Shown: piece after piece, positions 1,928 through 11,375 of the stretch
Position numbering within the stretch: the stretch's first letter is position 1
Layout of the letters: each line of letters starts with the position of its first letter
Assembly (NCBI GenBank): GCA_002457135.1
Contig: NTKX01000016.1
Span: 1 to 32,779 of the forward strand
DNA length: 32,779 bases
Reading direction: 5' to 3'
Source: SAR116 cluster bacterium MED-G04
GTDB taxonomy: Bacteria; Pseudomonadota; Alphaproteobacteria; Puniceispirillales; UBA1172
Position numbers and translations under genes: made by a program
The notes under the pieces: model-generated
Seen by the model: only the letters and a program-made list of their open reading frames with translations
Databases searched by the model: none
What the model was told of the DNA's origin: nothing

Positions 1928-2674
1928 ATGACGGCATCCGCTTCAGCAACCGATGAAAAAGAGGGTCGCCCCTCAACGCAAGCCCCACTTCTGGAGGCGA
2001 CGGGCATTGCCATGGGGTATGATAACCGGCTGGTGTTGAGCGAGGTCTCCCTCACCATGGGGGCAGGCGATTGCATCATCCTCAAGGGCGATAACGGCAC
2101 CGGCAAGACAACGCTGTTGAGGGGGCTGGCCGGGCTGGCACCCCTGATCACCGGGACGGTGAAAATCGGCGGGGTAAACCTGAACGATGACCGTGTTCAC
2201 GCCAGCAGGAGGCTGCTTTACATCGGTCACCGTGACGGGCTTGCCGCCGAGCTGACGGTGGGGGAAGCACTTAATTTATGGGCCAGCTCACGCGGGTTTG
2301 CCATCAGTCAGGATAACATGGATGAGGGCCTAAACCGGCTTGGGATGGGGGGTATTTCAGGCCGCCTGATCCGCACCCTTTCTGCCGGGCAGAAAAGACG
2401 GGCCGCGATGGCACGGCTGGGCATCATGATCAGCCTTGGCCGGACCGATGAAACCCCGCTCTGGCTGCTGGATGAACCCGCCACCGCCATGGACAACACC
2501 GCAACCGGCCATTTCACCCGCCTGGTTGAGGATCACCTCACGGCAGGGGGTGCTGTGCTGATGACCAGCCATCATGACCTGCCTGTTGCCAGTGCGCGCT
2601 CAATGATGATTACCGACCTTGACCAGGGTTGCAGTAATCGGGGCAAGGGCGATCAGGACAGCGACCATGACTGA
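1928..2674 (+). CDS. ccmA: Heme exporter ATP-binding protein CcmA
   Basis: This is the ATPase subunit of the CcmABCD complex, which releases heme-loaded CcmE during c-type cytochrome maturation at the inner membrane. The 248-residue product has Walker A GDNGTGKTT at 54-62, an ABC signature variant LSAGQKRR, Walker B LWLLDEPATAMD and the switch His in MTSHHD. An N-terminal extension of about 20 residues is rich in Ser, Ala and charged residues and looks disordered. AAGGA lies three bases before the ATG. A TATACT box at 1914-1919 is so close to the start that a very short or absent leader is possible. The gene overlaps ccmB by 8 bases, which implies translational coupling. Confidence 0.93.
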   Translation: MTASASATDEKEGRPSTQAPLLEATGIAMGYDNRLVLSEVSLTMGAGDCIILKGDNGTGKTTLLRGLAGLAPLITGTVKIGGVNLNDDRVHASRRLLYIGHRDGLAAELTVGEALNLWASSRGFAISQDNMDEGLNRLGMGGISGRLIRTLSAGQKRRAAMARLGIMISLGRTDETPLWLLDEPATAMDNTATGHFTRLVEDHLTAGGAVLMTSHHDLPVASARSMMITDLDQGCSNRGKGDQDSDHD

Positions 2675-3344
2675 TGCTCTTGCTGTCATGCTGGCGATTA
2701 TCCGCCGTGATCTGCTGGTTGCCCGGCGCGGGTTTGGTGACACGCTGGCGGGGGCCGGATATTTCGCTGTTATCATCGCGCTGTTGCCGCTGGCCATCGG
2801 CCCGGGGCCGGATACGCTGAGGCTCATCGGCCCGGCCATGATCTGGGTTGCCGCGCTGATCGCTGTCCTGCCGCAGATGGAACGGCTCTACAGCCGTGAT
2901 GCCGCTGATGGCTCGCTCGATGATCTGATCCTCACTCCCCTGCCCCTGCCCATGGTAGTGCTGGCCAAGGTTACAGCCGGGTGGATCATGATCGGGCTTC
3001 CGCTGGTGGTGATGACCCCGCTGCTTGCGCTGGTGCTGGGCCTGCCCGCCAGTATCATGCCGGTGCTGACAGCATCCATTGCCATTGGCAGTGTTGCCCT
3101 GATGCTGCTGGGGTCGATGGCAGCCGCGATTGCCATTGGCGCGAGGCGTGCCTCAATCCTGATCGCGGTGCTGATCCTGCCGCTGGCCATGCCTGTCCTG
3201 ATTTTCGGGACAGCCGCCCCGCTGGCGGTACTGTCAGGCGATCCTGCGTTCCCGCATCTTGCCCTCCTCTCAGCGGCCACACTGGTGCTGCTGGCGATCA
3301 CACCGGTTGCAACCGCAGCCAGCCTCAGAATCGCGGCAGAGTAA
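2667..3344 (+). CDS. ccmB: Heme exporter permease CcmB
   Basis: CcmB is the membrane permease partner of CcmA in cytochrome c maturation. The 225-residue product starts MTDALAVMLAIIRRD and contains about six hydrophobic segments, with the family-typical stretch around YSRDAADGSLDDL on the cytoplasmic side. I chose the ATG at 2667, inside the end of ccmA, over an in-frame start at 2619, because the family begins with this short amphipathic segment and 225 residues is the usual length. The expected next gene, ccmC, is absent: the following gene runs toward ccmB on the other strand. The stop codon lies in a 14-base perfect palindrome at 3342-3355. Confidence 0.92.
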   Translation: MTDALAVMLAIIRRDLLVARRGFGDTLAGAGYFAVIIALLPLAIGPGPDTLRLIGPAMIWVAALIAVLPQMERLYSRDAADGSLDDLILTPLPLPMVVLAKVTAGWIMIGLPLVVMTPLLALVLGLPASIMPVLTASIAIGSVALMLLGSMAAAIAIGARRASILIAVLILPLAMPVLIFGTAAPLAVLSGDPAFPHLALLSAATLVLLAITPVATAASLRIAAE

Positions 3345-3366: not shown

Positions 3367-3396
3367 GGTATTAGTTCTGGCGGTATTAGTTCTGGC
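3367..3396. repeat. 15-bp direct tandem duplication at the end of the corrinoid-activator gene
   Basis: The unit ggtattagttctggc occurs exactly twice, at 3367-3381 and 3382-3396. The second copy holds the last codons and stop of the minus-strand activator gene, and the first copy lies just past that stop. This looks like a slippage duplication of the gene end. Confidence 0.9.
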
Positions 3397-5503
3397 GGCG
3401 GCGACGACCACGCCGACGGGCTGAGGACGGGTCCTCAAGCGAGGGTTCACCCACCCCAAGCGTGCGTTCAGGCATGGTCACAGCCTCGGTCAGCCTGACG
3501 TAGGGATCGGTCTTGTGGGGGATCGCCATGGCCTTGACGAAATGGTTCTGGAACGACGGTTCGATGGCGGTTTCGATTTTTTCGATCCTGCGCACCATGT
3601 CTTCAACCCTGGACCTTGCGCCGCGATTGAGCAGGCAGATCCGCGCCCCGGTACCGGCTGAATTGCCAGCCGCCTTGACCCGGTCAAGCAGGCAGTCAGG
3701 GATCATGCCCAGCACCATGGCGTATTTCGGCTCAATATGCGTTCCGAACGCCCCGGCCAGCACCACCCGGTCAATCGTCTCAATCTCCAGCTTGTCCATC
3801 AGGAGTCGGAACCCGGCATAGAGCGCGGCCTTGGCCAGCTGGATGGCACGAACATCATTCTGGGTGATCGTCACGGTCTCAGAGACACGATAGCGGAAGG
3901 TCCGGCCATCTTGCTCAATCCGGGGGGAAACAGCGGCTTTCCTGCCATCAACCTCACCATCCTCGGTGATGATGCCGGCCAGATACATCTCGGCGATGAC
4001 CTCAATAATGCCTGACCCGCAGATGCCGGTGATGCCGGTTGCGGCCACAGCCTCATCAAAACCGTCTTCATCGGACCATGGCTCAACCCCGATGACACGG
4101 AACCTTGGCTCCAGCGTTTCGGCGTTGACACGGATGCGTTCAATGGCCCCCGGGGCGGCACGCTGGCCGCTGGAAATCTGGGCGCCCTCAAAGGCAGGGC
4201 CGGTCGGTGAGGATGCCGCCAGCAGGCGGCCACTGTTGCCGCAGATAATTTCAGCATTGGTGCCAACGTCGATGATGAGGCTCATCTCATCGCTGTCATC
4301 CGGGCTTTCGGCGAGCGCAACCGCCGCCGCATCAGCCCCGACATGACCGGCAATGCAGGGCAGCACATAAACCCGTGCGCCGGGATGGATGCTGAAATCA
4401 AGCTCACTCGCCATGACTTCAACACTTTCATCCATGGCCAGCGCAAACGGTGCGCCGCCCAGTTCAACCGGGTCAATCCCCAGCACCAGATGATGCATCA
4501 CAGGATTGCCCACCAGCACGACATCAACAATATCATCGGTTTCAACCCCGGCCTGACTGGCCGCGCCCTCAAGGAGGGATTGCAGACCGGCCCGCACGGC
4601 ATCGGTCATCTCAACCGCGCCGCCTTCATTGAGGAAGCCGTAGGAAACCCGGCTCATGAGGTCTTCCCCGAACCGGATCTGCGGGTTCATGGCACCGGAA
4701 GAAGCCAGCACCACGCCCGAATTCATATCACAGAGATGCGCCGACATGGTGGTGGAGCCGATATCAATCGCGGCACCGACCACCTGTTCCTTCAGCCCCG
4801 GCCAGACCCCGATGATACGATGCCCGTCACGCAGGGCAACGGTGATCTGCCATTTGCCTTTGCGGAGGATGGGCTGCAACCCCTGCAACACTGCCATATC
4901 AGCGGTCACCGGCTGACCGGAGAGGCGATCAGGCCACTGGTCTTGCAGCGCCTCGATCACTCGCCTCAGATCACCGGAAGGGTCATGCATATCGGGTTCG
5001 CGCACCTCAATGAAACACAGCCGGGTCGGTGCATCCATTTCGATCACGCGGGTATCAGCGTCTTTGCGGATGACCTGATCATGGACCTGGCTTTCCGCCG
5101 GAACATCAATCACCACATCGGAACGGAGGATGGCCTGGCAGGAAAGCCTGCGCCCGGTGGCAAGGCCTCGTTTATCGGCATAGCGATCCTCAACACTGGA
5201 CCGCGCCGTCACGCTATCGGCTGAAGATTGAATGCCGTGTTTGGCGAAATCGCCTTCACCAACGACGATCTGGCATCGCCCGCACATGGCGCGGCCACCG
5301 CAAACACTGTCGATATCAACGCCAAGGCTGCGGGCCGCTTGCAGAACGCTCGTCCCCGATGGCACCTCGCCCTGCCGGCCTGATGGCGTGAAGACGATGC
5401 GGATCGACTTATCCCCGGCAGGATGGCCCTCGTTAGGCTGGCCCCCTTTAGAGGGGCTTTCGTTCGGAATACTCTCGTTCCGGGTATTTTCTTTATCCGA
5501 CAT
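3386..5503 (-). CDS. Reductive activator of corrinoid protein (2Fe-2S ferredoxin plus ASKHA domain)
   Basis: RACo/RamA-type proteins use ATP and a low-potential electron to return oxidised Co(II) corrinoid to active Co(I). The 705-residue product has a low-complexity N-terminus (1-30), then a plant-type 2Fe-2S domain with Cys68, Cys74, Cys77 and Cys122 (CX5CX2C...C), a middle linker domain and a long ASKHA ATPase domain. The latter begins with the phosphate loop GAAIDIGSTT near 243-252 and carries DVGTNAE and later VLAGAFGTHIEP. This order matches the DUF4445/RACo family. The C-terminus ends in an Arg-rich tail (SARRRGRRRRQN). GAGGG precedes the ATG. It is the last gene of the corrinoid cluster, 90 bases after the methyltransferase, which suggests it services the corrinoid protein encoded at 7940-8632. 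The family assignment is firm; the target is inferred from context. Confidence 0.9.
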   Translation of the reverse strand: MSDKENTRNESIPNESPSKGGQPNEGHPAGDKSIRIVFTPSGRQGEVPSGTSVLQAARSLGVDIDSVCGGRAMCGRCQIVVGEGDFAKHGIQSSADSVTARSSVEDRYADKRGLATGRRLSCQAILRSDVVIDVPAESQVHDQVIRKDADTRVIEMDAPTRLCFIEVREPDMHDPSGDLRRVIEALQDQWPDRLSGQPVTADMAVLQGLQPILRKGKWQITVALRDGHRIIGVWPGLKEQVVGAAIDIGSTTMSAHLCDMNSGVVLASSGAMNPQIRFGEDLMSRVSYGFLNEGGAVEMTDAVRAGLQSLLEGAASQAGVETDDIVDVVLVGNPVMHHLVLGIDPVELGGAPFALAMDESVEVMASELDFSIHPGARVYVLPCIAGHVGADAAAVALAESPDDSDEMSLIIDVGTNAEIICGNSGRLLAASSPTGPAFEGAQISSGQRAAPGAIERIRVNAETLEPRFRVIGVEPWSDEDGFDEAVAATGITGICGSGIIEVIAEMYLAGIITEDGEVDGRKAAVSPRIEQDGRTFRYRVSETVTITQNDVRAIQLAKAALYAGFRLLMDKLEIETIDRVVLAGAFGTHIEPKYAMVLGMIPDCLLDRVKAAGNSAGTGARICLLNRGARSRVEDMVRRIEKIETAIEPSFQNHFVKAMAIPHKTDPYVRLTEAVTMPERTLGVGEPSLEDPSSARRRGRRRRQN

Positions 5504-5538
5504 GGAAGCGTTTCCCTCACCAAAAACGCGGTATTGGC

Positions 5539-5569
5539 TGGCATTCTATCCGTTTGGCATTCTATCCGG
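5539..5569. repeat. Tandem duplication, 16-bp period, between methyltransferase and activator genes
   Basis: The unit tggcattctatccgtt (5539-5554) is followed at once by tggcattctatccgg (5555-5569), identical over the first 14 bases. It sits in the 90-base gap between two genes of the corrinoid cluster, upstream of the activator's ribosome binding site. Confidence 0.85.
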
Positions 5570-5593
5570 CTGATAGTAAAGCAGCCAGCCTGA

Positions 5594-6493
5594 TCAGGCG
5601 CGGCGACGGCGACGGCTTTCCCTGCCACCACGACCAACACCTTCGGGTGTCGGTTCACGGTATTTCTGAATCCAGCGGCGGCATTCGGGGTCAGTCCCCA
5701 TCATCACATCAGCCCCCATGATAGCTGACATTTCCTCAGAATGAAGGGGGTTCATGATGGCAGAGGTCATGCCCGCGCCAACCGCCATGGAAAGGAAGGC
5801 CGCGTTCATGCCGTGGCGATTGGGCAGACCAAAGGAAATATTGGACGCACCGCAGGTGGTGTTGACCTTCAGCTCTTCACGCAAACGGCGGATCAGATCA
5901 AGCGCTGCCTTGCCCGCCAGGTTGATCGCCCCCACCGGCATGATGAGCGGGTCAACCACAACATCCGCACGGGGAATACCAAAATCCTCGGCGCGTTCGA
6001 CAATCTTTTTTGCGACCTCATAGCGAACATTGGGGTCTTCGGAAATGCCGGTCTCATCATTGGAAATCGCCACAACAGCGGCGTTGTATTTCTTGACCAG
6101 CGGGAGCACGACCTCAAGCCGTTCTTCCTCACCCGTCACGGAATTGACCAGCGGCTTGCCCTTATAAACCGAAAGCCCGGCTTCGAGGGCCTCAACAATA
6201 GAGCTGTCAATCGCCAGCGGCACATCAACGGTGTTCTGCACCAGCTGGATGCATTCGGCGAGGATTTTTGGCTCATCCACCATGGGGATACCGGCGTTGA
6301 CATCCAGCATGGTTGCCCCGGCCTCAACCTGGGCGATGGCATCGGAAACAACACGCGAATAATCGCCCTCGGCCATTTCGGCGGCCAGCAGCTTTCGCCC
6401 TGTCGGGTTGATCCTCTCGCCGATGATGCAGAACGGACGCTCAAAACCGATGGAGATTTCCTGCTTCTCGGATGAAATCAGGGTCTGTGTCAT
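5594..6493 (-). CDS. Methyltetrahydrofolate:corrinoid methyltransferase (pterin-binding family)
   Basis: The protein is predicted to move the methyl group of 5-methyl-tetrahydrofolate to Co(I) of a corrinoid protein. It is equivalent to the folate domain of MetH, or to AcsE/MtgA. The 299-residue product is a dihydropteroate-synthase-like TIM barrel with GERINPTG at 25-32, DVNAG, AIDSS, ISND, DPLIMPVG and a CGASNISFGLPNR segment that fits the family. The C-terminal tail is Arg-rich (RGGRESRRRRRA), like that of the neighbouring activator. AGAGGA lies about seven bases before the ATG. It sits 47 bases after the MetF-like gene, so the enzyme that makes methyl-H4folate and the one that uses it are encoded next to each other. 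True DHPS (folP) is less likely because GERINPTG and the corrinoid neighbours point to the methyltransferase branch. Confidence 0.88.
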   Translation of the reverse strand: MTQTLISSEKQEISIGFERPFCIIGERINPTGRKLLAAEMAEGDYSRVVSDAIAQVEAGATMLDVNAGIPMVDEPKILAECIQLVQNTVDVPLAIDSSIVEALEAGLSVYKGKPLVNSVTGEEERLEVVLPLVKKYNAAVVAISNDETGISEDPNVRYEVAKKIVERAEDFGIPRADVVVDPLIMPVGAINLAGKAALDLIRRLREELKVNTTCGASNISFGLPNRHGMNAAFLSMAVGAGMTSAIMNPLHSEEMSAIMGADVMMGTDPECRRWIQKYREPTPEGVGRGGRESRRRRRA

Positions 6494-6540: not shown

Positions 6541-7440
6541 TTAGTTTTCCTTGACGGAGAAGCCGCCCTTGGGCAGCAGATCAAAATCACCTGCGGCAAC
6601 CGCTGTTGCCCATTTTTCGGTGCGGGCAAAACCGCCAAACGGATAGTAATGAAAATGGCTGAGGCGCGATTCAGGATCATTGGCCATGGCCTCGGCCAGA
6701 CCGGTGATGAGCGTATGCGGCGACTGGACAGTCAGCAGCCTGGTGACGTTGCGGGCCTGTTTGGTGATCATCCGCATGGATGGCCCGATGCCCGAAATCT
6801 GGGCAAAGCGCAGCAGCGTTTTAATCGTGGCAGGGCCGGGAATACCAATGCGGATCGGCAGATCATTACCCCTAGCTCGGATGCGGTTTTCCCAGGCGAT
6901 CACCGGATCAGCCTCAAAACAGAACTGGGTTTCGATGTAAAGCTCCAGCCCTTCACGGCGGGCGAAGTCATTTTTCCATTCCAGCGCCTCGGCGAGCTGA
7001 TCATCATTGATATCGGGGCTGCCCTCGGGATGGCCGGAAACACCGATGCGGCTGATGCCGTTTTCCTGCAACACCCCGGTTTCAAGAATTTCCATCGAAG
7101 ACGCGAAATCACCCACCGGGTTATCCACCCCGCCGCCGATAACCAGCACTTCATCAACATTGGCGCGGCTGGCCATTTCCTTGACGATGCTGCCCAGCTG
7201 ATCCCGCGACTGAACCGAACGCGCCGCGATATGCGGGACAGGGTTCATGCCGTCATCACGCAACCGGACAGCCACATCGACGGTGTCCATCGGGTCCGTA
7301 CCTGGCAGAAAGGTGACATTGACCGTGGTATCCGGGGCCAGAATTTCAGCAAAGCTATCGATTTTGGTGGCACCCGGCGGGGTCACCTCAATCGACCAGT
7401 GCTGGCCAGCGGCGGCAATAGCATCTTTCAGGTCAGTCAT
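6541..7440 (-). CDS. metF: MetF-type methylenetetrahydrofolate reductase
   Basis: MetF reduces 5,10-methylene-H4folate to 5-methyl-H4folate with FAD. From the ATG at 7438-7440 the product has 299 residues, the usual MetF length. It has the catalytic Glu in SIEVTPPG (Glu18), a GGGVDNPVGDF segment where the family carries an acidic active-site residue, SGHPEGSP, and IETQFCF with the substrate-contacting Gln. It is divergent from E. coli-type MetF, and I place it in a MetF-related branch found with corrinoid genes. I rejected an upstream TTG at 7497 because GGAG precedes 7440 with good spacing. A hairpin at 7461-7475 lies in the leader. The gene is probably co-transcribed with the methyltransferase and activator. 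Confidence 0.85.
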   Translation of the reverse strand: MTDLKDAIAAAGQHWSIEVTPPGATKIDSFAEILAPDTTVNVTFLPGTDPMDTVDVAVRLRDDGMNPVPHIAARSVQSRDQLGSIVKEMASRANVDEVLVIGGGVDNPVGDFASSMEILETGVLQENGISRIGVSGHPEGSPDINDDQLAEALEWKNDFARREGLELYIETQFCFEADPVIAWENRIRARGNDLPIRIGIPGPATIKTLLRFAQISGIGPSMRMITKQARNVTRLLTVQSPHTLITGLAEAMANDPESRLSHFHYYPFGGFARTEKWATAVAAGDFDLLPKGGFSVKEN

Positions 7441-7460
7441 CACAATCTCCAAACAGAGGG

Positions 7461-7475
7461 GGCCCCCAACGGGCC
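7461..7475 (-). promoter_or_regulatory. Leader hairpin upstream of metF-like gene
   Basis: On the plus strand GGCCC (7461-7465), loop CCAAC and GGGCC (7471-7475) form a perfect 5-bp GC stem. In the mRNA it lies just upstream of the GGAG ribosome binding site of the metF-like gene. It could affect initiation or be fortuitous. It does not match a riboswitch I can recognise. Confidence 0.3.
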
Positions 7476-7595
7476 TCACACTTAAAACGGCAAGCAATTC
7501 GTTATTGTCATTTCTGATTGCGATTTAACGAGCGTGTTGGCTGGCCTTGTCGCGGCATTCAATCGTCCGTTTGCGACCAATCGCGGGTTTGCCGC

Positions 7596-7624: not shown

Positions 7625-7936
7625 TCAGGTTTCCTTACCGCCACTGGCCACCAGGGCTGCCAGTTTTTCCTTGTTGTAGAGGGCATCGAGTTCGGCTGCC
7701 TTGCCCTCGGCCGCGGCGCTCAGGTCACCGTCAATCGCTTCGGGATCAGCCTTGCGCCATTCAGCCAGATAATCATCGGTGCTGTCCGCGCCATCACGCA
7801 TCGCCGCCTCATCAATGGCGAGGGCAAAACGCCGGGGCATTTCAACCTTGGCCTGCTGGCGATTACGGCCACGGCCTTCCTCAGCCACCACCTGGGCGGG
7901 GATATCCCGCCAGTAGATCACGGTCAGGTTTGCCAT
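7625..7936 (-). CDS. Small 'virulence factor' family protein linked to corrinoid metabolism
   Basis: The 103-residue soluble protein begins MANLTVIYWRDIPAQVVAEEG and has an Arg/Gln-rich segment (RGRNRQQAKVEMPRR) followed by acidic helices. I recognise it as resembling the Pfam family labelled 'Virulence factor' (PF13769), small alphaproteobacterial proteins often placed next to metF-like and corrinoid genes. The label is historical and I see nothing toxin-like. There are no Cys, no membrane segment and no signal peptide. It starts three bases after the corrinoid-protein stop without a clear Shine-Dalgarno site, so translation is probably coupled. A role in folding, loading or docking of the corrinoid protein is inference only. 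Confidence 0.75.
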   Translation of the reverse strand: MANLTVIYWRDIPAQVVAEEGRGRNRQQAKVEMPRRFALAIDEAAMRDGADSTDDYLAEWRKADPEAIDGDLSAAAEGKAAELDALYNKEKLAALVASGGKET

Positions 7937-7939
7937 GGT

Positions 7940-8632
7940 TTATTCAGCAGCCGTGCGATCAGCCACCATCGACTTGGCGGTTTCAACAGCAACCGCCGCA
8001 TCACGGCAATAGGCATCGGCCCCGATGGAATCGGCAAAGGCCTCATTCAGCGGCGCGCCACCGACCAGGACGATGAAATCTTCCCTGATGCCCTTTTCTT
8101 CCATCGCGTCGATCACGACCTTCATGTAAGGCATGGTTGTGGTCAGGAGCGCGGACATGCCGAGGATATCGGGCTTATGTTCTTCCAGCGCCTCAAGGTA
8201 GTTTTCAACCGGGTTGTTGATGCCGAGGTCGATGACTTCAAAGCCCGCGCCCTCCATCATCATGGAAACGAGGTTCTTGCCGATATCGTGGATATCGCCC
8301 TTGACCGTGCCGATCACCATCTTGCCCTGCTGGGGTGCGCCGGTTTCAGCCAGGAGCGGGCGCAGGATGGTCATCCCCGACTTCATCGCGTTGGCCGCCA
8401 TCAGCACTTCGGGAACAAACAGGATGCCATCGCGGAAATCAACCCCGACAATGGTCATGCCCTCAACCAGCGCTTCGGTCAGGACACGGTAGGGCGCCCA
8501 GCCGCGTCCAAGGAAGATATTGACCGCTTCAACGACTTCATCCTGAAGACCATCGTAAAGGTCATCATGGATCTGCTGGGTCAGCTCGTCATCATCGAGT
8601 TCGGAAAGGATGATATCATCTTCATCAGCCAT
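7940..8632 (-). CDS. Corrinoid (B12)-binding methyl carrier protein
   Basis: This protein holds the cobalamin that shuttles a methyl group between the folate methyltransferase and an acceptor. The 230-residue product has a helical cap domain (about 15-95), as in MetH modules or MtgC/MtaC, then a Rossmann B12-binding domain with the base-off motif DIHDIG (Asp113, His115, Gly118), the TVKGD lead-in, SALLTTT and VGGAPL. His115 should coordinate cobalt from below. I chose the ATG at 8630-8632 because GGAGGA precedes it. An upstream TTG at 8698 would add 22 residues but has no ribosome binding site. It is the first gene of the cluster and is coupled to the small protein that follows. Confidence 0.92.
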   Translation of the reverse strand: MADEDDIILSELDDDELTQQIHDDLYDGLQDEVVEAVNIFLGRGWAPYRVLTEALVEGMTIVGVDFRDGILFVPEVLMAANAMKSGMTILRPLLAETGAPQQGKMVIGTVKGDIHDIGKNLVSMMMEGAGFEVIDLGINNPVENYLEALEEHKPDILGMSALLTTTMPYMKVVIDAMEEKGIREDFIVLVGGAPLNEAFADSIGADAYCRDAAVAVETAKSMVADRTAAE

Positions 8633-8764
8633 GGCTTTGTCCTCCGGCAGCGCGGGATGCGCATTTATCCAATATTCTTCATCTTTGCTAATCTTCAAGC
8701 GCAGGCGATGCTACTGCCACGACAAAAAATGTTCCACTTTCGGCATAATGACACCAAAAGTATC

Positions 8765-10504: not shown

Positions 10505-11182
10505 TCATTCAAACAGCAATTCGGTGCCGAGGTAGAGGCTGACGATTTCATCATCATCCATCGTGTAGGTATCATAGCCAAGCTGGATATTGAGGTTTTC
10601 GGCCACCGCGTAATCAGCCCCGAGGCCCCAGATCATGTCAGAACCGTCAACACTGACATTGGCCGAACCCGTCAGGGACTGAACCTTCATTTCGGTTTCC
10701 CAGAGATGGTAGCCAAGTTTGCCAAAGAAACCGAGGCCATTGCCCACCGGAAAATGCAGAATACTGGCGACACCATAGGACCGGCTTTCGATATCAATGC
10801 TGCCCGCGCCGGTGAAACTGTAGCTCCGGTTATTGTAGCTGTACGATTGCCCGGAGCTGCCCTTGATCCCGGCGATACCGTGATCGGCATAGAAACCTTC
10901 CAGTTTCAGGGCGGTGGTGAACTGATACCCGAAACCGAAGCCATACCCCCCGGCCTCATCATCCAGCTGTATGCTGCTGGTCGGGTTGGTAATAGCGTAT
11001 TCGTTCGTGTTGCTGGCCGCCATGACCCTGGCGTAAAAGCCATAGTCACTGGCCCCGCCAGCAGCAACACCCCCGGTGCTGTGCTTATGATCAGCGAAAG
11101 CCACTGGTGCAGTGAACAGGGCAAGCATCACCAGAATAGAAAGTGCAACGGGTATAAAACGCATCTCAGGAAACCGCATCAT
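10505..11182 (-). CDS. OmpA-like outer membrane beta-barrel protein
   Basis: This is a secreted 225-residue protein with a signal peptide (MMRFPEMRFIPVALSILVM... ending near AFADHK). Alternating aromatic and hydrophobic strands follow, of the 8-stranded porin-like barrel type (Omp25/RopB-like), with motifs such as YGFGFGYQF, GFFGKLGYHLW and IWGLGADYAVAENLNIQLGYDTY. It probably sits in the outer membrane; a specific function cannot be given. The frame is open to 11287, but the upstream part would put a repeated Ser-Lys-Ser-Gly stretch before the signal peptide and overlaps the promoter. I therefore start at 11182, with 11164 as alternative. The last residues are LLFE, so the usual C-terminal Phe is followed by Glu. 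Confidence 0.8.
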   Translation of the reverse strand: MMRFPEMRFIPVALSILVMLALFTAPVAFADHKHSTGGVAAGGASDYGFYARVMAASNTNEYAITNPTSSIQLDDEAGGYGFGFGYQFTTALKLEGFYADHGIAGIKGSSGQSYSYNNRSYSFTGAGSIDIESRSYGVASILHFPVGNGLGFFGKLGYHLWETEMKVQSLTGSANVSVDGSDMIWGLGADYAVAENLNIQLGYDTYTMDDDEIVSLYLGTELLFE

Positions 11183-11200
11183 GGGGTCATCACCGTCAAG

Positions 11201-11248
11201 TTTACTGCCAGATTTACTGCCAGATTTACTACCAGATTTACTGGGGGC
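11201..11248. repeat. 12-bp tandem repeat (three copies plus a partial) in the OMP gene leader
   Basis: The unit tttactgccaga occurs at 11201-11212 and 11213-11224, then tttactaccaga at 11225-11236, and a decayed copy tttactgggggc at 11237-11248. It lies between the putative promoter and the start codon of the beta-barrel gene, so it would be transcribed as untranslated leader. Confidence 0.9.
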
Positions 11249-11278
11249 AGAATAGGTCACCTTGTTCAAAATGGTCAA
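11249..11278 (-). promoter_or_regulatory. Putative sigma-70 promoter of the beta-barrel gene
   Basis: On the minus strand TTGACC (11273-11278) is separated by 18 bases from TATTCT (11249-11254). Predicted initiation near 11241 places the 12-bp tandem repeats in the leader and supports the start codon at 11182 rather than 11287. Confidence 0.5.
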
Positions 11279-11375
11279 TATTATCATGTTCTAATGGAGT
11301 GCATTTTCTTGAACAGGATCAATAAGGCCCCAAGTTATCAGTATTTCCGGGGATATTATTATAGGGAGAGATTGC

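Follow-up and report, generated by a model that had tools for sequence, protein, structure and literature searches.

The 32,779 nt stretch of DNA analysed here (the window) is contig NTKX01000016.1, positions 1 to 32,779, of SAR116 cluster bacterium MED-G04 (GCA_002457135.1), and it carries a corrinoid operon in which the methyltransferase MtgD and a RamA-like activator both end in an arginine (Arg)-rich tail. Comparison with homologues revealed these two tails to be almost universally kept in the proteobacteria sampled, and the MttB/MtgB methyltransferase family carries a similar tail at its opposite end. All three are expected partners of one corrinoid protein, MtgC, which has a strongly acidic N-terminus. 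We tentatively interpret the tail as a tag that docks its enzyme electrostatically to MtgC, and give this reading a little under an even chance. The gene families are those of the split methionine synthase / glycine-betaine demethylase (MtgBCDE plus RamA) of Phaeobacter inhibens and Ruegeria pomeroyi, whose corrinoid core the genes represent. This system itself is already known; it is the tails that are in question here.

The mtgD gene (5594..6493, minus strand) encodes a methyltetrahydrofolate:corrinoid methyltransferase of 299 amino acids (aa), as evident from matches to PF00809 (expectation value E = 1e-29) and PRK07535 (377.8 bits, cut-off 259). Its Arg-rich C-terminal tail, RGGRESRRRRRA, is encoded at 5597..5632 on the minus strand. 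The ramA-like gene for the corrinoid reductive activator (3386..5503, minus strand, 705 aa) has an N-terminal Fer2 domain (E = 1.3e-8) followed by the RACo linker, middle and C-terminal ASKHA domains (RACo_C_ter, E = 1.5e-86), matches the RACo structure 3zyy, and ends in the tail SARRRGRRRRQN (3389..3424, minus strand). Both tails had been pointed out in a preliminary description of this DNA and were read at the same place, and its statement that the two enzymes are encoded by neighbouring genes was borne out, since mtgD and the ramA-like gene are adjacent on one strand with 90 bases between them.

For quantification, 10-residue segments of the last 20 residues were compared, and the highest Arg count was taken as the tail score. 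A score of 4 or more was reached by 131 of 132 MtgD and 101 of 103 RamA homologues, all of them distinct but many closely related to one another, versus 36 of 652 background open reading frames (ORFs) of at least 200 aa that were picked mechanically from 80 related loci and are unverified as genes. Raising the threshold to at least 5 Arg gave 127/132, 99/103 and 11/652, respectively. Homologues were counted only if they ran to a real stop codon and could be aligned as far as query residue 245 for MtgD or 640 for RamA, and duplicates were dropped on the basis of the last 220 residues, reducing MtgD from 173 to 132 and RamA from 110 to 103 sequences. The MtgD and RamA tails are not a product of chance. 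The MtgD miss (L118) does contain an Arg cluster, located further from the end; the same is true of one RamA miss (L124), where the cluster is followed by a 41-residue extension, while the other (L136) lacks an Arg tail in all three frames of that strand. Inspection by eye of the 80 related loci, which contain the methyltransferase in 80, the activator in 75 and the corrinoid protein in 64 cases (the latter two at least in part), showed an Arg-rich end wherever the gene reads to its stop, a few activators being Arg/Lys-rich; the sole exception is an activator ORF (L028) that ends in unrelated sequence.

The closest relatives of the window in the genome collection belong to the SAR116 cluster, Puniceispirillum and other Alphaproteobacteria. 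In a sparser set of 39 genomes, almost every one of which represents a family of its own (30 of the class of the window and 9 of a second class, probably Gammaproteobacteria), tails were present in 37 of 39 MtgD and 36 of 38 RamA proteins. One MtgD miss is genome G062, where MtgD is broken and MtgC and RamA were not detected at the thresholds used, so that this genome is absent from the correlations given below. Its MtgD and MTTB genes (L111, L200) each appear as two overlapping pieces, reflecting either decay or an assembly error. Azoarcus (Betaproteobacteria), Sinorhizobium meliloti and Paracoccus carry Arg tails on both MtgD and RamA. Absence of the tails from close orthologues, which the preliminary description had named as a refutation, is not what was found: the tails are near universal in the sampled Alphaproteobacteria and extend to the nine second-class genomes and one named Betaproteobacterium.

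In the MtgD and RamA homologues, the residues leading up to the Arg cluster differ in number and identity, whereas the cluster itself is kept. The linkers are poorly conserved and rich in Gly, Ala and Glu. In the AlphaFold2 model of MtgD, residues 281-299 have a mean predicted local distance difference test (pLDDT) score of 64, falling to 49, and on the basis of this model the MtgD tail is taken as flexible or disordered. In S. meliloti, a small hypothetical gene on pSymB (L385:11601-11939) lies between mtgD and ramA, and its product has a basic C-terminus.

The genome of MED-G04 contains four PF06253 (MttB/MtgB) matches whose substrates are not assigned. One of these MttB/MtgB proteins begins with the Arg-rich segment MTEATASERRSRRGGGRDARRAIR, and the other three also have an Arg-rich N-terminal segment. 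Among 117 distinct PF06253 proteins, a subset of all PF06253 matches in the genomes that was taken from two sets of 30 loci and from 60 chosen regions, 110 have at least 4 Arg in 10 residues at the N-terminal end when the 45 residues before the core are scored irrespective of the start codon; cutting at an internal Met gives 103/117. For background N-termini, scored differently over the 45 residues that begin at the first Met, the figure is 54/544. Two of the seven misses have no Arg tail (L285, L284) and five reach 3 Arg (L194, L186, L175, L263, L325). The Arg-rich N-terminus also occurs in distant PF06253 paralogues, in the second proteobacterial class and in the solved S. meliloti protein 4yyc (chain 4yyc_A). 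By these sequence criteria, MttB/MtgB is a third expected MtgC partner family with an Arg tail, placed at the end opposite to that of MtgD and RamA.

The proposed receptor, the free-standing corrinoid protein MtgC, is encoded by mtgC (7940..8632, minus strand) and consists of a B12-binding cap (PF02607) and a B12-binding domain (PF02310). Because GGAGG lies just upstream of the ATG at 8632, we prefer this codon as the putative start over the TTG at 8698 with which the listed ORF begins. The acidic N-terminus, MADEDDIILSELDDDEL (8632..8582, minus strand), agrees with the strongly acidic start that had been described before, with 15 Asp/Glu and no Lys/Arg in the first 40 residues. In all 38 genomes with MtgC this segment has a net charge of -5 to -14. 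Over the first ~43 residues of 39 aligned sequences the mean net charge is -14, and the alignment reveals a conserved DLxxLxDxEL-like pattern.

A search of the 39 genomes with PF02607 gave exactly one match in a small frame (<400 aa) in 33 of them, two in G104, G072, G128 and G436, three in G064 and none in G062; another 18 matches fall within frames of more than 650 aa, most of which are about as large as MetH. PF06253 matches, fragments included, number 1-15 per genome. With one small corrinoid protein beside 1-15 PF06253 matches, one MtgC would therefore serve all methyltransferases in most genomes, and the Arg tails may mark the clients of an MtgC hub. In MED-G04, MtgC is the sole PF02607 match at E <= 1e-6. 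No second, MetH-like match with PF02607, PF02574 or MtgD was found in this assembly, which is 76.6% complete, while MetH-size frames do occur in other genomes of the comparison set.

The tails are confined to part of the operon. Transcription on the minus strand runs from mtgC via a small PF13769 gene and a metF2-like gene to mtgD and the ramA-like gene. The PF13769 gene (7625..7936, minus strand; Pfam match, 'virulence factor') shares the frame of mtgC, with only the stop and one codon between them, and the methylenetetrahydrofolate reductase-like gene (metF2-like; 6541..7497, minus strand, start codon provisional) was recognised via PF02219 at 27.5 bits with a cut-off of 24. Neither product is known to act on MtgC, and neither has an Arg tail; none of 63 PF13769 and none of 58 MetF2-like homologues reaches 4 Arg at the C-terminus. 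The operons of Azoarcus, S. meliloti and Paracoccus are annotated with a DUF1638 protein, which has no tail in these three organisms, its ends being judged by eye. The PF13769 gene is also found within the corrinoid operon of Azoarcus and S. meliloti; its Pfam name is probably misleading in this setting. MED-G04 has one match to a homocysteine methyltransferase of MtgE type (PF02574; E = 9e-60), which lies on a different contig, C31, and in all 12 MtgE matches inspected by eye the tail is missing, although the remoter ones may be other homocysteine methyltransferases. Tails thus occur on MtgD, RamA and MttB/MtgB, and are absent from MetF2-like, PF13769 and MtgE proteins.

Docking to the acidic N-terminus of MtgC would be a plausible role for the tails. 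In the window, the net charge without the tail is -13 for MtgD and -30 for RamA, and MtgC has a total of -28; with bodies that are net negative, the tails are therefore the positive patches of the two enzymes. In the mechanism we propose, the acidic MtgC hub would interact successively with three kinds of client, namely a donor methyltransferase drawn from several MttB/MtgB paralogues, MtgD, and RamA, and the Arg-rich terminal tail of each client would move flexibly on its variable linker. The tail would attach reversibly to the acidic N-terminal segment and the cap helices of MtgC, thereby raising the client-MtgC encounter rate and holding MtgC loosely, and would stand in for the covalent domain linkage of classical MetH. 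Binding of the tail to MtgC, the binding site and the kinetic benefit are what we infer from the features above.

The co-variation of tails and acidity that the preliminary description had suggested looking for is present, yet it points to no particular receptor. The more acidic the MtgC N-terminus, the more Arg the tails contain in sum (Spearman 0.47, p = 0.003; Alphaproteobacteria only, 0.47, p = 0.009). Contrasts on the MtgD tree gave r = 0.41 (p = 0.011) at first, and r = 0.46 (p = 0.004) once the RamA of G013, whose Arg cluster precedes an extension, had been scored by hand as 6 instead of 0; leaving out single genomes from the corrected data gave 0.39-0.51. The same tail Arg tracks the acidity of the MtgD body equally well (r = 0.49, p = 0.002), followed by that of the first cap helices of MtgC (0.45), the RamA body (0.33) and the MtgC body (0.32). 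Because MtgD body acidity correlates equally, the signal is not specific to the MtgC N-terminus, and it may reflect a general or genome-wide acidity effect. Co-variation was consequently dropped as proof of docking, the specificity control having failed (0.49 versus 0.46).

Further observations weigh against docking together with this unspecific signal. The clearest misfit is MtgE, a tail-less enzyme that has to receive its methyl group from MtgC. In the structural model of MtgC, low confidence is limited to about the first 8-10 residues, and the remaining acidic stretch enters the ordered first cap helix. Genome G069 has a tail-less activator (L136), and its MtgC N-terminus is, at net -5, the least acidic of the 38. 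At L282 and L283, MttB paralogues have an Arg cluster upstream of the core (start codons uncertain), and their private corrinoid protein lacks an acidic extension; conversely, the MttB paralogue of L285 has no tail and stands beside a private corrinoid protein with a net charge of -9 in 36 residues. Tails beside a corrinoid protein without the acidic segment had been named before as a second refutation of docking, and the private partners at L282 and L283 come close to this case. The picture is mixed, since the source genomes of these paralogues, G072 and G064, also encode an acidic MtgC. These three loci, in which MttB paralogues are paired with a private corrinoid protein in the presence of the shared MtgC, would be useful for probing the roles of the Arg tag and the acidic extension. 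Taken together, the earlier proposal that the tails dock both enzymes to the acidic MtgC draws partial support from the conserved tails, the third tailed partner, the acidity of MtgC and the lack of tails on the anaerobe RACo, MeTr and RamA-like proteins inspected, and is weakened by the unspecific co-variation and the tail-less MtgE.

The alternative that survives best, though we regard it as rather unlikely, is that the tails bind another polyanion (RNA, polyphosphate or acidic lipid) or drive a shared condensate, with MtgC being no specific receptor. It is consistent with the lack of a specific link between the tails and the MtgC N-terminus and with the Arg clusters kept at L282 and L283, and it gains from the tails being Arg/Gly-rich like RGG segments, RGGR being present in 12 of 39 MtgD tails versus a mean of 2.65 in shuffles. 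However, in the operons that were read it is the presumed MtgC-acting enzymes that bear the tails, and the other neighbours are tail-less, whereas a general localisation tag should also mark the MetF2-like protein or MtgE. A longer motif, RRGGR, exceeded within-tail shuffles in the large related set (24/132 MtgD, 22/103 RamA and 13/115 MtgB/MttB), but in the sparse set it did so for MtgD only (6/39; 0.4% of shuffles reach it), with no excess in RamA (1/38) or MtgB (2/39). GGR[DE][AS]RR was found in the sparse set in 7/39 MtgB, 1/39 MtgD and 0/38 RamA tails. An exact motif common to the three tails was dropped, as the sparse-set excess of RRGGR is confined to MtgD.

We consider it improbable that the tails serve charge balance or solubility, with a positive flexible end tuning colloidal stability or shielding repulsion without a defined receptor. 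The correlation of tail Arg with MtgD and RamA body acidity would be expected in this case, but such ends are rare in the background ORFs of related loci, and Lys should serve equally well. In the 10 genomes with an mtgD locus of 52% guanine plus cytosine (GC) or less (loci of 34-52% GC), Arg was instead strongly preferred in the MtgD tails (66 Arg to 3 Lys; MtgD bodies, 122 to 103), and preferred more weakly in the RamA tails (54 to 11) and the MtgB N-terminal ends (69 to 23).

Still less probable is an action of the tail on its own enzyme or ligand, such as its own acidic surface or the polyglutamate chain of folate. Cellular folates are polyglutamylated, MtgD uses folates and the enzyme bodies are acidic; yet RamA and MttB/MtgB are tailed though not expected to use folate, and the MetF2-like protein, which should use it, is tail-less. 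A compositional accident, in which GC-rich genomes drift to functionless termini rich in CGN codons, is disfavoured to the point of dismissal: CGN Arg codons are GC-rich and the window has ~60% GC, but the tails are kept, and are mostly Arg, even at low-GC mtgD loci (34-52%), whose MtgD bodies contain almost as many Lys as Arg, they are rare in background ORFs, and the linkers diverge while the Arg cluster stays.

Returning to electrostatic docking, the tags may be useful in aerobes rather than in strict anaerobes because of the frequent re-reduction of oxidised cobalamin. A broader proposition, which we hold to be possible but doubtful, is that aerobic proteobacteria swapped the fused domains of MetH for a soluble 'plug-in' system. 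MtgC would recognise any Arg-tagged enzyme, new donors of the MttB superfamily would join the hub and the reactivase by means of the tag, and the O2-sensitive cobalamin would be kept near the reactivase. For bacteria demethylating glycine betaine and related compounds, the docking proposal would explain in a testable way how the separately produced components of a split B12 methyltransferase come together with the corrinoid protein that they share. For the many MttB paralogues without an assigned substrate, it predicts that an Arg-tagged paralogue is an MtgC client; if true, corrinoid partners could be assigned by means of the tags, which could also serve the engineering of modular B12 methyl transfer.

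Elsewhere in the window, a gene for a CcmA-type heme exporter ATPase, followed by an ORF resembling its membrane partner (1928..3344, plus strand), converges on the activator gene. At 10508..11287, a predicted outer-membrane beta-barrel protein has the repeat SGSKSGSKSGSK near the start of the listed ORF, and its true start may lie downstream. An Rfam scan of the window gave no match at gathering scores.

As far as the accessible parts of the two reports go, the split methionine synthase of P. inhibens (PMC5764234) has the same gene set as found here, and the MtgBCDE plus RamA system of R. pomeroyi (PMC12478193) comprises the same families. In MED-G04, MtgD, MtgC, the RamA-like and the MetF2-like protein are encoded in one operon, whereas the MtgB- and MtgE-type genes lie elsewhere in the genome. 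Neither tails nor an acidic MtgC N-terminus are mentioned in the accessible parts of these descriptions; the words 'arginine', 'acidic' and 'electrostatic' have no occurrence in the main text of PMC12478193, and no description of these Arg tails was found among the open-licence papers listed in the searches made.

The proteins of anaerobes, namely the methyltransferase MeTr (AcsE; 1f6y), the activator RACo (AcsV; 3zyy) and the corrinoid protein 1y80, are homologous over the catalytic or B12-binding core. The chains of MeTr (262-272 aa) and RACo (631 aa) are crystallised constructs that stop within ~10 residues of the aligned core, and within 9 residues in the case of 3zyy, which is where the tails would start. 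Ahead of the aligned cap, MtgC has 19 residues and the corrinoid protein 1y80 has 5. In the MttB superfamily, 2qne and 7xcl from anaerobes and 4yyc from Sinorhizobium have the PF06253 core in common; in 2qne, for which only length was compared, 19 residues precede it. By eye, no Arg tail was seen on the RamA-like proteins of Acetoanaerobium, Vescimonas, Gemmatirosa and the haloarchaeon Halomicrococcus. The haloarchaeal corrinoid protein has an N-terminus of net -16 in 47 residues, and the neighbouring activator and MtrH-like protein are tail-less; haloarchaeal proteins are acidic in general. Drawn from a few lineages, the contrast in tails inside versus outside the Proteobacteria may reflect descent only.

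A parallel for an N-terminal extension of a corrinoid protein with a role in docking is the methanol:corrinoid methyltransferase MtaB-MtaC. According to the accessible part of PMC9842639, the extra N-terminal domain of MtaC appears to aid docking and to stabilise the MtaB-MtaC complex, and in the MttB-MttC pair the MttC cap forms a main contact. The two arrangements differ in kind: the MtaC extension is a domain located in the groove between the MtaB subunits, whereas in our proposal an acidic segment of MtgC would meet the basic tails of its clients.

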